Part shown: positions 20,700 through 25,881 of the stretch, piece by piece
Numbering within the stretch: the stretch's first letter is position 1
How the letters are laid out: the number at the start of each line of letters is the position of its first letter
From: Desulfosporosinus sp.
Lineage (GTDB): Bacteria > Bacillota > Desulfitobacteriia > Desulfitobacteriales > Desulfitobacteriaceae
Direction of reading: 5' to 3'
Assembly (NCBI GenBank): GCA_031292095.1
Contig: JARLHU010000025.1
Span: 1-35,143 of the forward strand
DNA: 35,143 nt
Notes under the pieces: generated by a model
What the model saw: only the letters and a program-made list of their open reading frames with translations
Databases searched by the model: none
What the model was told of the DNA's origin: nothing
Translations under genes and position numbers: made by a program

Positions 20700-21962
20700 C
20701 TATAATCTTAATAAACCGAAAATAATACTTACGAACCCTGGAAACAAGGTTGATACAAGTAAAAGCAAGGTAAGGAAAATTAAGATAAAGGTAAAGGCCC
20801 AGGAGATGACATTGAAAAATCTTGTATTTACATATTCACCCATAATGCTTTTCTTACTGGCGAGCAGCACCATGAAGATGAGGATGGGGGGCAAAAGAAC
20901 CCCATTGACGACTTGGGTGGTCAACATGACGTGGTATAAGGACAAATTGGGCCACAAGACAATGGCTGCACCCAGAACGATGAGGACGGTATAAAGCCCA
21001 AAGAATACCGGAGCTTCTTTATGGGATTTGCTAATCCCATGTTCAAAACCGAACGCTTCACAGACGGCATAAGCGGTGCTTAAGGGAAGCACAAACGCGG
21101 CCAACATGGATGCGCCGAGTAGACCGAAGGCAAACAGGAACGTGGCATATTGTCCGGCTAACGGTTTTAACGCTATGGCAACATCTTTTGCCGTTTCAAT
21201 GGGGATCTTGTTGACGAAGAGTGTCGCAGCGGTGGCTACAATAATAAAGAAGGCAATGAGTCCAGTGAAAAATGTTCCGATCAATACATCCCAGCGAGTA
21301 TAACGGTAATTCTTGGCAGTGATTCCTTTATCAACCACAGAGGACTGAACATAGAACTGTCCCCAAGGTGTAATTGTAGTTCCGATCACCCCGATGGCCA
21401 TCAATAAAAAAGCAGGGGTTCCTGAGAACGTGGGGGTAACAGATTCGACAAAGACTTGATGCCAGGGTGGATGGACCATAATCCCAGAGATAACATAGCT
21501 GAAAAAAGTCAAGCAGAGGAGCAGGAGGATTTTCTCCATTTTCCCATAATCTGTCTTGGTGACTAGCCACCAAATTATGAAGGCCATGGCCGGTACGGCG
21601 AGATACTTATTTACCCCGAAAATTTCAAAACTTGTCGCAATTCCGGAAAATTCGGAAGCAGTGGTCCCTAGATTGGCAATCAGAAGAACACTCATAGCAA
21701 AGAAAGTCCATTTTACGCCGTAGTTTTCTCGAATTAAGTCAGCCAATCCTCGACCGGTTACGGCTCCTGTGCGCGCGGAGATTTCTTGAGCAATAGCCAG
21801 AAGCACGGTGCTGACAAGCATGGTAAAGATAAGCGCATAGCCGAATTTAGCCCCCGCTGCAGCATACGTGGCAATGCCACCAGCATCATTATCAGCAAAG
21901 GCAGTGACAATTCCCGGGCCCATAACGGCAAAGAACAGGGCAAAACGTACCTTTACGTTCAT
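20700..21962 (-). CDS. Nramp-family transporter lacking the canonical metal ligands (magnesium-type, NRMT-like)
   Basis: The protein has 420 residues with about 11 hydrophobic segments. Segment 1 reads GPGIVTAFADNDAGG where canonical Nramp proteins have DPGN: Asp26 is kept, Pro and Asn become Ala27 and Gly29. Segment 6 reads GTTITPWGQFY where canonical members have A-x-x-M-P-H-N: Ala and Met become Thr195 and Thr198, His and Asn become Trp200 and Gly201. The Met is the ligand that favours soft metals such as Mn2+ and Fe2+; its loss marks the Nramp-related magnesium transporter branch. The start overlaps the MgtE_N/CBS gene (ATGA), and the operon has an M-box Mg2+ riboswitch, so Mg2+ uptake is the best assignment. 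Confidence 0.88.
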   Translation of the reverse strand: MNVKVRFALFFAVMGPGIVTAFADNDAGGIATYAAAGAKFGYALIFTMLVSTVLLAIAQEISARTGAVTGRGLADLIRENYGVKWTFFAMSVLLIANLGTTASEFSGIATSFEIFGVNKYLAVPAMAFIIWWLVTKTDYGKMEKILLLLCLTFFSYVISGIMVHPPWHQVFVESVTPTFSGTPAFLLMAIGVIGTTITPWGQFYVQSSVVDKGITAKNYRYTRWDVLIGTFFTGLIAFFIIVATAATLFVNKIPIETAKDVAIALKPLAGQYATFLFAFGLLGASMLAAFVLPLSTAYAVCEAFGFEHGISKSHKEAPVFFGLYTVLIVLGAAIVLWPNLSLYHVMLTTQVVNGVLLPPILIFMVLLASKKSIMGEYVNTRFFNVISWAFTFILIFLTLLLLVSTLFPGFVSIIFGLLRL

Positions 21963-23257
21963 TCGCTATGCCCTCCTTTCGGCTGGTGACGAAGGGCGAT
22001 CAGACTAGAGAAAATTTCTCCACGAGGGCGCTCCGGCATTAATAATTCTAAAACGTCGTCCACTGTGATGATGCCCAAGATTTGGTCCCGATCATTAACA
22101 ACGGGAGCGGCCAGTAAGCCATATTTGTGGATGATATCAGCCACTTTTTCGTGATCGTCATAGGGAGAAATTTTTACGATTTTCTTATGCATTAAATCTT
22201 TAAGCGGAGTTTCTGGAGACGCGATGATCAGCTGGCGTAGGGAAAGTACGCCTTCAAGGGTCTCTTGTTCATCGACCACATAGACATAATAAATAGTTTC
22301 CGCCTCAGGAGCTAACCGTCTTAATTCGTTAATGGCCTGTTCAGCGGTAAGCCAGAAGGGTAAGCCTATAAATTCGGTGGTCATCAGCGAACCGGCAGTG
22401 TCTTCCTCATATTGCATCAATTCTCGAACGTCTTCAGCATCATCAGATTCCATTAAGCGCAGAAGTTCTTCAGATTTCTCTAAGGATAACTCGCCGAGAA
22501 TATCAGCGGCTTCGTCCGGAGGCATTTCTTCGAGGATATCAGAAGCACGGCCCTCATCCATCTGATTAATCATTTCCACTTGGGCATCTAATTCCATCTC
22601 CGCTAACGCATCAATAGCCTGTTGAGAATCAAGTGTCTCTAAAAAATTCGCCCGTTGTTTATAGTCCATAGTTTCGATAATGTCCGCGATATCTGCAGGA
22701 TGAAGTTGACGTAATTGTTCTTTTTCTCTAGTAAGTTGGAGGTCTGAGGTGCGATTTTCTAAAGGTTTAATATATTGGCAACCCACAAAGTTATTCGCGA
22801 TACGGCTCAGTAAAAACTCAACACCTAAGCGCCGGAATAAACCACGAACACCAATATCCACAGCAACCAAAACCAGGTATTGACGATCCTCACGGGACAC
22901 CAAGGACAAGGCGATGTCATTCACGCGTACCAGTTTAGAGCCTTCTAAATCAATAATTTGTTTATCTAACAACCATTTGCCAATCAGCGTTTCTTCTTCA
23001 TGCATCGGGCGCGTTAATAAGGGGTTGAAAGCAGTATTGAGGCGCAACCCGTCTGCATCCCAGGAAACCACCCATTCAATGGGAATTAGGGCATGAAGCC
23101 CTTTGGCATATTGAATGCCGGTAACCTGTGGAGAGATACTGTCCCAGCGCATTGTCATGTCCAGCAATCGGCCAACACGACGTCCCTTAGCATCCCAGAT
23201 CGGCTTCTTAGACAACTGACTGAAATAAAATTCCCCTAAAACTTTCAATTCATTCAT
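21959..23257 (-). CDS. Soluble PRC-barrel/MgtE_N/CBS protein, partner of the Nramp transporter
   Basis: The protein has 432 residues and no transmembrane segment. About 10-150 hold a PRC-barrel-like part (KPIWDAKGRRVGRLLDM) and its repeat. About 175-290 hold the MgtE_N superhelix (LHPADIADIIETM, MPPDEAADILGEL). About 290-415 hold a CBS pair (LMTTEFIGLPFW, LMHKKIVKISP, LGIITVDDVLELL). In MgtE the N and CBS domains sense cytosolic Mg2+ and gate a fused channel; here the channel is absent and an Nramp-type gene follows, so this looks like a separate Mg2+-sensing regulator of that transporter. The ATG follows AAAGGAGGG. Confidence 0.88.
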   Translation of the reverse strand: MNELKVLGEFYFSQLSKKPIWDAKGRRVGRLLDMTMRWDSISPQVTGIQYAKGLHALIPIEWVVSWDADGLRLNTAFNPLLTRPMHEEETLIGKWLLDKQIIDLEGSKLVRVNDIALSLVSREDRQYLVLVAVDIGVRGLFRRLGVEFLLSRIANNFVGCQYIKPLENRTSDLQLTREKEQLRQLHPADIADIIETMDYKQRANFLETLDSQQAIDALAEMELDAQVEMINQMDEGRASDILEEMPPDEAADILGELSLEKSEELLRLMESDDAEDVRELMQYEEDTAGSLMTTEFIGLPFWLTAEQAINELRRLAPEAETIYYVYVVDEQETLEGVLSLRQLIIASPETPLKDLMHKKIVKISPYDDHEKVADIIHKYGLLAAPVVNDRDQILGIITVDDVLELLMPERPRGEIFSSLIALRHQPKGGHSE

Positions 23258-23362
23258 TTAACTTCCCTCCTTTGAGAAATGGAGCCCGGCACCTACAGCA
23301 AAAAGACTTCGTTCAGGATGAGTGAAACTAGAATTGCACGAATGACAAGGGCCAGAATCCAT
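23258..23362 (-). CDS. Possible 34-residue protein between M-box and mgtE_N gene
   Basis: An ATG (23360-23362), six to seven bases after a strong AAAGGAGGTGG box, opens a 34-codon frame (DSGPCHSCNSSFTHPERSLF and a tail). Its TAA directly abuts the ATG of the next gene, whose own ribosome binding site lies inside the frame. It has a CHSC pair and His residues. It could be a leader peptide, a small subunit or a chance frame. Confidence 0.4.
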   Translation of the reverse strand: MDSGPCHSCNSSFTHPERSLFAVGAGLHFSKEGS

Positions 23363-23411
23363 AAAACCACCTCCTTTAAATTCTCCCAAAAGGGAGATTA
23401 TAATAAGTAAG

Positions 23412-23628
23412 AAAAAGAAAAAGACCTCTATTACAAAATAGAAGGTCTTAAACGCAAACGGTTAGAACCTCCCTACTCGTTGAGCTTTAGCACTGCATAG
23501 CGTAGAGTTTGCTCAGCCACATTAAGTAAAACCTTATGCCGGTAGTACCTGTTCTACCCATTGGCGTCTCTCGACATTTCTGGGCAGTGGCCTATGTTTA
23601 TGCAGGAGCCTCACCTAACAGAGAATTA
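23412..23628 (-). ncRNA. M-box (ykoK) magnesium riboswitch with terminator
   Basis: Read on the minus strand, the leader holds the M-box core in order: TTAGGTGAGGCTCCTGC, a short stem, CACTGCCCAGAAATGTCGAG, AGACGCCAATGGGT, and a 3' stretch ending GGGAGGTTCTAACC. A terminator hairpin follows (23421-23449) with a U-rich tract towards 23411. M-boxes bind Mg2+ and end transcription when Mg2+ is plentiful. The genes behind it are the MgtE_N/CBS protein and the Nramp-type transporter. Confidence 0.93.
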
Positions 23629-23645
23629 GATTTTAAGTACACTTT

Positions 23646-23675
23646 ATTATATGCGTCATTCAGCAAATGTGTCAA
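23646..23675 (-). promoter_or_regulatory. Consensus promoter of the magnesium operon
   Basis: On the minus strand TTGACA (23670-23675) and TATAAT (23646-23651) are 18 bases apart, just upstream of the M-box aptamer. Confidence 0.88.
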
Positions 23676-23854: not shown

Positions 23855-23857
23855 CTA

Positions 23858-23919
23858 AGGCATATGAAAGAAAATAACAAGTCAAAGATGCCTCGGATAT
23901 TTTCTTGAATGTGCCTAAC
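23858..23919 (+). repeat. Leader repeat R1 (short form), upstream of scfA
   Basis: It carries both ends of the R repeat but lacks the middle: the two TATTTT copies seen in R2 are reduced to one, so the inside was probably lost by recombination between them. It lies 39 bases before the scfA start. Confidence 0.85.
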
Positions 23920-23958: not shown

Positions 23959-24099
23959 ATGGCAAAACACATTCAGACCATTGTGAAAGCAAACCTAAGT
24001 GCTACGGCTAAGACCGGAGGCTGTGGTCAGTGTCAGACCTCATGTCAATCTGCCTGCAAGACATCGTGCACGGTTGGTAACCAAGTGTGTGTTAAATAA
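23959..24099 (+). CDS. scfA: SCIFF ranthipeptide precursor
   Basis: A peptide of 46 residues with six Cys (22, 25, 29, 33, 37, 44) in a C-terminal GGCGQCQTSCQSACKTSC block, after a leader starting AKHIQTIVKANLSATAKTGG. This is the near-universal clostridial peptide called six-cysteines-in-forty-five. Its Cys side chains are linked as thioethers by the radical SAM maturase encoded just downstream. The ATG at 23959 is eight bases after GAGGAGGG; the ATG at 23955 is out of frame. The role of the mature peptide is unsettled; regulation or redox signalling has been suggested. It is flanked by two copies of the R repeat. Confidence 0.97.
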   Translation: MAKHIQTIVKANLSATAKTGGCGQCQTSCQSACKTSCTVGNQVCVK

Positions 24100-24186: not shown

Positions 24187-24350
24187 TAAGGCATATGAAA
24201 GAAAATAACAAGTCAAAGATGCCTTGGATATTTTGCGTCAGATAAGGAGGTATGTTCACCTCATAGCGGGGCTATTAGGTGAACATGCCGACGCAATATG
24301 ACACGAAATAGACTGGCATACTGACTGGTTATTTTCTTGAATGTGCCTAA
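24187..24350 (+). repeat. Leader repeat R2 (long form), between scfA and scfB
   Basis: The full unit is about 164 bases. Its ends are inverse copies of each other, containing AAAATAACAAGTCA on the left. Compared with R3 it has about 48 extra bases that form their own hairpin (24252-24261 with 24277-24286, inner ATAGC/GCTAT). It ends 28 bases before the scfB start. Confidence 0.88.
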
Positions 24351-24378
24351 GGTTTAGCAAGAAAGAGAGCGGATCTGG

Positions 24379-25881
24379 GTGTTGAATTTATTGGGTCTTA
24401 AGAGATATCGTATCAAGACAAATGTCCATAGTTATCTTCAAGGAGATTTATTTATTGCTCATGACGTCAATTCCGGTTCCCTGCATTTACTGGATGAGAG
24501 AACGTTTAATGTCCTAAAAGCTTGCGAAGATTTGCAAGAGCGTGAGGAAAAGATTACTCCGGAGGGGATTAACCGGGTCTTTAGACAAACGGGAAAACCA
24601 GCTCTTGCGGAAGAAGAACTGGCAGAAATCTTTGCAGAAATGGAAGACCTCCGCCAGGAGGGGACGCTTTTTTCGGAGGAGGCAGCTGTAATAATACCAA
24701 ACTACCCAGAGAAACCAATCGTCAAGGCTATTTGTTTACATGTGGCGCATGATTGTAATTTACGTTGTAAATATTGTTTTGCCGGAACAGGGACCTTTGG
24801 TGGTGGCAGAATGTTGATGGATTTGGAGACAGGTAAAAAGGGCATCGACTTTGTTTTGGCTTCATCAGGGCATAGGAGTCACTGCGAAGTTGATTTTTTT
24901 GGAGGAGAACCGCTGCTTAATTTCGGAGTCGTTAAGGCTCTGGTCGAATACGGTAGAAAAACAGCGGCGGCTCTGGATAAAACCATCAAATTCACGCTGA
25001 CTACGAACGTCGTGTTACTTAATGAAGAAATTCAAAATTATCTTGAACAAGAGGAGATCAGTGTGGTCTTGAGCCTGGATGGACGCCCAGAAGTCCATGA
25101 TCGGATGCGGCCCTATGCGGATGGCCGAGGAAGTTATGCAAAAGTCACCCCTCTCATCCAACAGTTTATAACCAAGCGCCCGGAAAGCTCACCCTACGCG
25201 ATAGGGACCTATTACTATGTTCGGGGGACGTATACGCATTTTAATTTGGATTTTGATCGCGATGTTTTGCACATGGCGGATTTAGGGATAAAACAGATTT
25301 CGATGGAACCGGTTGTAGCTGGTCCGGCGGACGCTTATGCCTTTCAAGACGGGGATTTGGAGAAAATCCGAGCAGCGTATGATCGCCTCGGCGAGGAATT
25401 ATTAATACGCCGCGCACAAGATCGAGATTTTAACTTTTTTCATTTCAATGTCGCCCTGGATCAAGGACCCTGTCTGATCAAACGGCTTTCCGGATGCGGA
25501 GCCGGCCACGAGTATGTGGCAATTTCTCCGGAGGGAGATCTCTATCCATGCCATCAGTTTGTGGGGCAGGAAGCTTACAAACTGGGTTCACTTTATGATG
25601 AGCACCCTCATCAACTGAAGGCCGAGGTGGTTAAGGACTTCCGCTCAGCAAATGTCTATGCAAAATCGACTTGCCGGGAGTGTTGGGCACGCTTTGCCTG
25701 TAGCGGGGGATGTCATGCGGCTAATGTAGCCTTTACCCAAAAGCTGACAGAGGTTTATGCTTTGGGGTGTGAGCTTCAGAAAAAACGGTTAGAAGTTGCA
25801 TTTTACGTGAAAATTAAAGAGATTCAACAAAATATAAATCTCTCAGCTGTTGCATCTCCCGTTCCGGAAGTTCGCTGCTAG
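24379..25881 (+). CDS. scfB: SCIFF maturase, radical SAM/SPASM enzyme
   Basis: The protein has 500 residues. The N-terminal 110 residues form a peptide-recognition part of RRE type (IKTNVHSYLQGDLFIAHDVN, LLDERTFNVLKA). CNLRCKYCF (Cys126, 130, 133) binds the radical SAM cluster, and DFFGGEPLL and LTTNVVLL are further core motifs. The C-terminal third is a SPASM domain with CGAGHEY, YPCHQF, CRECWARFACSGGCH for two auxiliary clusters. It forms Cys-to-Thr thioether links in the scfA product. The GTG at 24379 follows AGAGAGCGGA; TTG at the next codon is possible. Confidence 0.97.
   Translation: MLNLLGLKRYRIKTNVHSYLQGDLFIAHDVNSGSLHLLDERTFNVLKACEDLQEREEKITPEGINRVFRQTGKPALAEEELAEIFAEMEDLRQEGTLFSEEAAVIIPNYPEKPIVKAICLHVAHDCNLRCKYCFAGTGTFGGGRMLMDLETGKKGIDFVLASSGHRSHCEVDFFGGEPLLNFGVVKALVEYGRKTAAALDKTIKFTLTTNVVLLNEEIQNYLEQEEISVVLSLDGRPEVHDRMRPYADGRGSYAKVTPLIQQFITKRPESSPYAIGTYYYVRGTYTHFNLDFDRDVLHMADLGIKQISMEPVVAGPADAYAFQDGDLEKIRAAYDRLGEELLIRRAQDRDFNFFHFNVALDQGPCLIKRLSGCGAGHEYVAISPEGDLYPCHQFVGQEAYKLGSLYDEHPHQLKAEVVKDFRSANVYAKSTCRECWARFACSGGCHAANVAFTQKLTEVYALGCELQKKRLEVAFYVKIKEIQQNINLSAVASPVPEVRC

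Follow-up and report, generated by a model that had tools for sequence, protein, structure and literature searches.

Shin et al. (2014; PMC4072509) reported that M-boxes, the Mg2+ riboswitches also called ykoK leaders, precede Nramp-related genes, and that one of the encoded proteins, NrmT of Clostridium acetobutylicum, transports Mg2+. According to the same study, most NrmT members adjoin a gene for the cytoplasmic domain of MgtE, often behind an M-box, and feedback gating or chaperoning of the transporter was proposed. The D-x-x-G / T-x-x-A/T signature of the Nramp-related magnesium transporters (NRMTs) was published with EleNRMT of Eggerthella lenta, which is a measured Mg2+ transporter that also moves Mn2+ (PMC8806188). 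A second body of work concerns the leader open reading frames (ORFs) of Mg2+ transporters, on which ribosomes destabilize. MgtL has an EPDP start (PMC11282234), and MgtQ carries Asp2, Pro4 and Glu5 behind an AGGAGG Shine-Dalgarno (SD) sequence and forms alternative stems by which the next ribosome-binding site is either hidden or freed (PMC8092293).

Here we describe an operon in which elements of the first kind lie together with a leader ORF resembling those of the second, on the minus strand of one contig (C120; JARLHU010000025.1) of a 4.6-Mb draft genome of Desulfosporosinus sp. (G000), which is 92.6% complete; the 35,143 nucleotides (nt) analyzed are referred to below as the window. The order of the operon is promoter, M-box, terminator, leader ORF, a gene for a soluble MgtE-like protein (the partner) and a gene for an NRMT (the carrier). 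We estimate a probability of roughly 0.7 that it specifies a Mg2+-repressed Mg2+ importer together with a functional sensor-carrier partnership, a figure that excludes the sign and mechanism of gating. An earlier note on this DNA had described the promoter, the M-box core, the terminator and two overlapping genes, all of which we found on the minus strand, and its interpretation is partly supported and mostly published. In particular, the pairing cannot be called a new one for the sensor domain, as that note had suggested, because Shin et al. (2014) already had the gene pair, often behind an M-box, with feedback regulation proposed. The operon has the gene pair and the riboswitch in common with theirs, while the PRC module, leader ORF, attenuator and unlinked pairs with separate M-boxes described below are not mentioned in the portions of that paper available to us. 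The part that looks new is the leader ORF with its attenuator, together with how widely such ORFs occur in M-box leaders.

The Carrier

The carrier gene (20700..21962, minus strand) encodes an NRMT/NrmT protein of 420 amino acids (PF01566, 3e-98), and its ORF shares a 4-nt overlap, ATGA, with that of the partner. The best PDB match of the carrier is EleNRMT, over the full length (7qia, 2e-110), and the score to this protein is 373 bits versus 93 bits for the next-best Nramp. The two proteins also share the ion-site signature, with DNDAGG on helix 1 and GTTITPWG on helix 6 of the carrier, confirming the DAGG and T-x-x-T-P-W-G motifs noted earlier. Among aligned NRMTs, D-x-x-G is present in 35/35 at helix 1 and T-x-x-A/T in 36/36 at helix 6, with no Met, the ligand whose loss had earlier been named as a mark of the Nramp-related Mg2+ transporters. 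A difference is that EleNRMT was studied as a carrier, with no partner mentioned in the part of the paper available (PMC8806188). From homology and riboswitch context, and with no CorA or full MgtE found in the genome, the prediction that the carrier is a Mg2+ transporter is well supported, and we expect, with high confidence based on strong homology, that it would act in the import direction.

It is improbable that the carrier imports chiefly Mn2+ (or Fe2+), behind an M-box that reports divalent status only loosely. Such a reading would accommodate the Mn2+ transport by EleNRMT and the behavior of the Acidobacterium capsulatum NrmT, which lacks an M-box and acted as a Mn2+ importer, rescuing a Mn2+ defect (PMC4072509), a result that also counts against our reading. 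It fits poorly with the high-scoring M-box of the window, with a D-x-x-G / T-x-x-T site devoid of Met, with the canonical MntH (DPGN and MPH motifs) encoded by a separate gene of the same genome, and with the lack of any CorA or MgtE pore found in that genome. Searches of the 92.6% complete assembly returned no CorA match, no MgtE_N other than that of the partner and no full MgtE or MgtE pore. Since, in addition, the second M-box of this genome precedes the gene for an MgtA-type ATPase, NRMT and MgtA appear to be its M-box-controlled Mg2+ importers, within the limits of that completeness.

Other Nramp-type genes were encountered in the course of these searches. The same genome has an NRMT-like gene fragment of about 100 amino acids (L011 5770-6078). 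In G158 an M-box precedes a member of a different Nramp clade, ~34% identical to the window NRMT (L201 1-1882), at a locus that has an MNTDPGG leader ORF and lacks a close homologue of the partner. A similarly distant Nramp of the window's own genome (C77, DDDPSG / TTISPY) adjoins a PRC-domain protein.

The Partner

The partner gene (21959..23257, minus strand) encodes a predicted soluble protein of 432 amino acids with PRC-like barrels, MgtE_N, a CBS pair and a flexible tail. We do not regard this protein as an MgtE because Pfam detected MgtE_N (3e-26) and CBS (8e-14) and no MgtE pore domain in its 432 amino acids, and because its TIGR00400 score of 200 is below the cut-off of 232.75. In the AlphaFold model (mean predicted local distance difference test score, pLDDT, 80) the barrels occupy about residues 5-73 and 89-159, MgtE_N about 179-283 and the CBS pair about 288-406, and the top Foldseek matches of this model are MgtE cytosolic domains (1e-21). 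The pore-less MgtE_N/CBS architecture had been recognized in the earlier note; the two N-terminal PRC-barrel-like domains had been overlooked, as had the 34-codon leader ORF discussed below. The PRC-barrel module was matched in 33 of 39 relatives (best 2e-14), and the most conserved stretch of the partner takes in the second barrel (LDKQIVD..VRVND..GLLRRLG). In G124 two overlapping ORFs divide the gene near residue 200, which is the module boundary, and a two-gene split was reported for C. acetobutylicum (PMC4072509).

To map the Mg sites we used published MgtE numbering (PMC5882242; PMC5529423) and compared 39 partner proteins with 22 sampled MgtE proteins. The positions of D91 and D95 are invariant in 39/39 partners and that of D247 is kept in 38/39; the E59 position is acidic in 38/39 partners versus 6/22 MgtEs. 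Across the partners the residues of Mg4 and Mg6 are thus invariant or nearly so, and Mg5 is degraded. In the window partner, Mg4 and Mg6 are kept and Mg7 is acidic (E to D), so that it resembles the MgtE cytosolic N plus CBS domain (2yvy, 2zy9) in fold, in the Mg4 and Mg6 residues and in the acidic Mg7 position. It differs from MgtE in having no plug-helix segment or pore, a degraded Mg5, added N-terminal PRC barrels and a short tail that is basic in many members. Based on the conservation of the Mg4/Mg6 residues and the missing Mg2/Mg3 plug-helix segment, the partner is predicted to be a protein that retains the sensor core and has lost the pore-coupling part.

Association of Partner and Carrier

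To determine how regularly the two genes occur together we surveyed 299 genomes of the phylum, counting NRMT loci at >330 bits, and, at finer scale, 74 genomes of the same order. The partner gene is directly upstream on the same strand at 28/28 NRMT loci of the phylum set, with spacing of -4 to +264 nt, and an M-box precedes 21 of these 28 loci; this is the co-occurrence survey that the earlier note had called for. In the order set, 37 genomes have both genes (including one split partner and some fragmentary genes), 34 have neither, none has NRMT alone and three have the partner alone, these three being two 78-83% complete assemblies and one in which the partner gene stands at the end of a contig. 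Three genomes (G299, G300 and G334) retain the two genes at separate loci, which lie 0.93 Mb from each other in the single-contig G299. Both loci are headed by an M-box in G299 and G300; in G334 only the NRMT gene is, no M-box being found at the partner even at a permissive threshold. The unlinked pairs show shared Mg2+ control without linkage and favor action in trans. Taken together, full linkage and co-retention when unlinked strongly support the prediction of a functional link between partner and carrier. The distance matrices of the two proteins are also correlated (r = 0.83 for 34 pairs, against at most 0.19 in permutations).

With respect to the nature of this link, we think that the chances are about even that the PRC-MgtE_N-CBS protein would work with NRMT as we envisage, most likely by sensing cytosolic Mg2+ and damping the carrier once Mg2+ is restored. 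Gating of the carrier by its soluble partner is plausible because the Mg4/Mg6 residues are kept and because the in-frame read-through chain of partner and NRMT at one locus (L066) is modeled with pLDDT 84 and a predicted template modeling score (pTM) of 0.70. The two-piece Mg2+ system suggested earlier is well supported as regards the Mg2+ carrier, strongly supported by linkage and co-retention as regards the functional link, and plausible and unproven as regards gating by the sensor.

Several observations weigh against such a partnership or against the sensing role. C. acetobutylicum NrmT rescues growth without its partner, being functional in that state in Bacillus subtilis, and Mg2+ rescue was no greater when the A. 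capsulatum pair was co-expressed (PMC4072509). Within the partner, the window protein has G/E in place of the Mg5 pair D226/D250; the position of the ATP-stacking F227 is L in 37/39 partners, although L is also found in 8/22 MgtEs; and the plug-helix segment, through which the MgtE pore is gated and which holds Mg2/Mg3, is absent. Part of the distance correlation stems from the common history of the species. Joint structure prediction, another check put forward in the earlier note, was possible on the L066 chain, whose pTM is a weak sign of contact or of a preferred arrangement, because by our own estimate unoriented domains would give about 0.53. Finally, Desulfosporosinus G155 has an M-box and an intact partner gene with no NRMT beside them (L033 1131-2802). 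This orphan is at the syntenic place, and the same genome has two other M-box-partner-NRMT operons.

Some of these observations would be expected if the partner acted on NRMT as a metal chaperone or in its assembly, or if it served other clients (MgtA or other transporters) with the PRC module for docking. Chaperone activity is an alternative offered by Shin et al. (2014) themselves, and it is consistent with the activity of NrmT on its own and with the inclusion of the second PRC barrel in the most conserved stretch, while the orphan behind the M-box at L033 and another beside a KimA-like K+ transporter at L070 could point to other clients. We nevertheless consider this alternative unlikely, as no partner-less NRMT occurs in the 74 genomes of the order, the MgtE Mg-site residues are conserved in partners, and the KimA neighborhood did not recur. 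At L070 (2023-5409) a partner-like gene without an M-box adjoins the KimA-like gene (4e-110 to 6s3k); we rejected the idea that this transporter is another client, since the arrangement was seen in G003 alone and did not recur in the 74 genomes. At two further loci (L099 and L100) an M-box and partner gene, with an MDAGPERS ORF in the leader, stand just before a phosphofructokinase-like ORF and then a glucose-6-phosphate-isomerase-like ORF, both named by eye.

No natural sensor-carrier fusion was found. Two long frames were considered and rejected. In the GC-rich genome G055 the 849-amino-acid frame is an MgtE-type protein within a long open frame, and the 842-amino-acid frame of G221 has a stop inside it.

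The M-box and Its Expression Platform

Upstream of the genes, a sigma-70-type promoter (TTGACA-18-TATAAT; 23646..23675, minus strand) matches the consensus at 12/12 bases, and a promoter-like TTGAC..TATAAT is present in most Desulfosporosinus relatives. The M-box aptamer (23465..23629, minus strand) scores 157.4 bits to RF00380, for which the gathering score is 44, and is full length (model 1-169). It is followed by a predicted intrinsic terminator (about 23405..23450, minus strand), an inverted repeat AAGACCTTCTA...TAGAGGTCTT and then a T-tract. This assignment is based on the sequence, the predicted fold and the conservation of the stem in relatives; a simple promoter/terminator scan did not pick up the terminator at about 23450-23405. 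The 5' arm of the terminator, GACCUUCU, can pair with the 3' strand of the aptamer, GGGAGGUU, as a possible antiterminator. The strands of the predicted terminator and antiterminator are both present in the sequence. By homology to the proven mechanism, it is very likely that with ample Mg2+ the M-box would fold and the terminator halt transcription, and that at low Mg2+ the operon would be read.

The Leader ORF and Attenuator

Between the terminator and the partner gene is a leader ORF of 34 amino acids, MDSGPCHSCNSSFTHPERSLFAVGAGLHFSKEGS (23258..23362, minus strand), with a strong SD, AAAGGAGGTGG, and a TAA stop that abuts the ATG of the partner. The first codons are conserved in the 21 leaders of this type, that of the window included, with Asp2 in 19/21, Ser3 in 20/21 and Gly4 and Pro5 in 21/21, and Gly4 is encoded by all four codons across these leaders. 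It is a short SD-led ORF that starts with acidic/Pro residues and precedes a gene for Mg2+ transport, which is the layout of MgtL and MgtQ; with these it shares the acidic residue at codon 2 and a nearby Pro or acid, and it shares with MgtQ the strong SD and the alternative stems for the next ribosome-binding site (PMC11282234; PMC8092293). Unlike this ORF, which follows an M-box terminator, MgtL and MgtQ are enterobacterial and have no M-box, and MgtL acts through Rho.

We surveyed 120 distinct M-box leaders and 48 M-box-bearing families. Other leaders, including those of mgtE and mgtA, likewise have a strong SD and ATG followed by Asp/Glu and then Pro, Gly or an acidic residue, with starts such as MDTDPGRS, MDADPDD, MDPDPGS, MDDPDADL and MDGGSS. 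In the scanned interval, 65/120 leaders have an SD-led short ORF; residue 2 is D/E in 53/120 versus 1.5 expected from shuffles, and 42/120 combine D/E at residue 2 with Pro at 3-8, versus 0.3 in shuffles. The count by family is the fairer figure because the 120 leaders include close relatives, and 27 of the 48 families have an acidic-start leader ORF. Because the scan was devised after the pattern had been seen, the exact ratios serve as description. The M-box leader of mgtA in the window's own genome (L003 / L009, G000 C146) has a leader ORF, MDGGSSGDMKPGG..., and ~395 nt from aptamer to gene, and the leaders of the unlinked NRMT genes (L108-L110) have no such ORF.

That the leader ORF arose by chance is highly improbable: the poor conservation of its body beyond codon 6, in sequence and in length, would agree with a chance ORF, whereas the figures for leaders and families just given contradict it, as do the controls, in which none of six antisense ORFs had Asp/Glu at residue 2, Asp at residue 2 occurred in 2 of 143 SD-led longer ORFs, and 5 of the 19 matches to a strict DNA pattern in the 299 genomes were just behind an M-box.

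The start of the ORF is also part of a predicted attenuator. Region 1 (23349..23361, minus strand), which is the start of the leader ORF, pairs in the RNAalifold consensus with region 2 (23280..23293, minus strand), which contains the anti-SD CUCC. Region 2 may instead pair with the SD of the partner gene, GGAGG (23266..23270, minus strand), which lies within the leader ORF and pairs with CUCC in 20/20 sequences. By sequence, the two pairings of region 2 are mutually exclusive, a predicted attenuator layout like that of MgtQ. In the clade of the window, the pairing of the ORF start (region 1) with GG-CCAGA-CUCC near the ORF end (region 2) holds in 98.6% of cells, versus 27-47% when slid. Covariation is weak, with one pair showing a compensatory change and 51/500 shuffles reaching as much, and support for the attenuator is for this reason drawn from the conserved pairing and the slide control. 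The sign of attenuator control cannot be read from the sequence alone.

The pairing bears directly on why the ORF start is conserved. Because the start pairs with region 2, its conservation in the window clade can be driven by the RNA; a single acidic residue is present among the first five residues in this clade. If conservation were at the RNA level only, through anti-SD pairing or translational coupling, the peptide would be no Mg2+ sensor. Besides the 98.6% pairing, three points favor this reading: an ATG with GAN as the next codon creates UGGA, able to pair with an anti-SD UCC; the synonymous changes of Gly4 and Pro5 fall at unpaired wobble positions; and the stop abuts the partner ATG. 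Strong start pairing was also seen in 12/55 leaders across families versus 2.75 expected. We consider this explanation somewhat less likely than not, since the MDTDPDG, MDADPSG and MDTDPGRS families, like MDTDP/MDADP-type leaders generally, are mostly without unusual pairing and still keep the acidic residue and Pro, and since Pro at 3-8 with D/E at 2 is so rare in shuffles. To the peptide explanation of the conservation we accordingly give somewhat less than an even chance.

With the same reserve, we propose that the acidic/proline leader ORF and the alternative pairing could tune translation of the sensor gene, probably because ribosomes would leave the MDSGP start when Mg2+ is low, after the manner of MgtL/MgtQ. 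Both the gating of the carrier and the sensing of Mg2+ by the leader are inferences. By extension, and somewhat short of an even chance, many Bacillota M-box leaders would contain two stacked Mg2+ sensors, the aptamer and an acidic/proline leader ORF from which ribosome drop-off at low Mg2+ sets translation of the next gene. A literature search covering few subscription journals turned up no publication that links an M-box with a ribosome-destabilizing leader. By analogy, the M-box upstream ORF of Mycobacterium tuberculosis (uORF2 / Rv1805A; PMC12810186) may be a relative in principle, as it is a conserved short ORF between the M-box and the first gene with a conserved N-terminal Pro7; it differs in that its M-box is translational, termination is Rho-dependent and the ORF is said to be mycobacteria-specific.

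Divergent Neighbors of the Operon

Divergent to the operon on the plus strand are a Cys-rich short ORF (MAKHIQTIVKANLSATAKTGGCGQCQTSCQSACKTSCTVGNQVCVK; window 23959-24099) and, with it, a gene for a SCIFF-peptide radical SAM maturase (TIGR03974, 568 bits; 24379-25881). The SCIFF ORF is bracketed by a 48-nt direct repeat (23856-23903 and 24187-24234; 98% identical, 331 nt apart), a related inverted copy of which is near 24322-24354.

Implications

What the MgtE-like fragment does has been a question since 2014, and the co-retention of the two genes in unlinked pairs together with the conserved Mg-site residues makes gating directly testable by naming the genomes and residues to use. The leader ORFs point to M-boxes often sharing their leaders with another Mg2+ sensor; sensors based on RNA structure and on ribosome stability may act in series. 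If this is true, the MgtL/MgtQ principle would exist in Gram-positive bacteria, joined to a riboswitch, in 27/48 of the M-box-bearing families sampled, and M-box reporter constructs ending upstream of the leader ORF would leave out one layer of the control.

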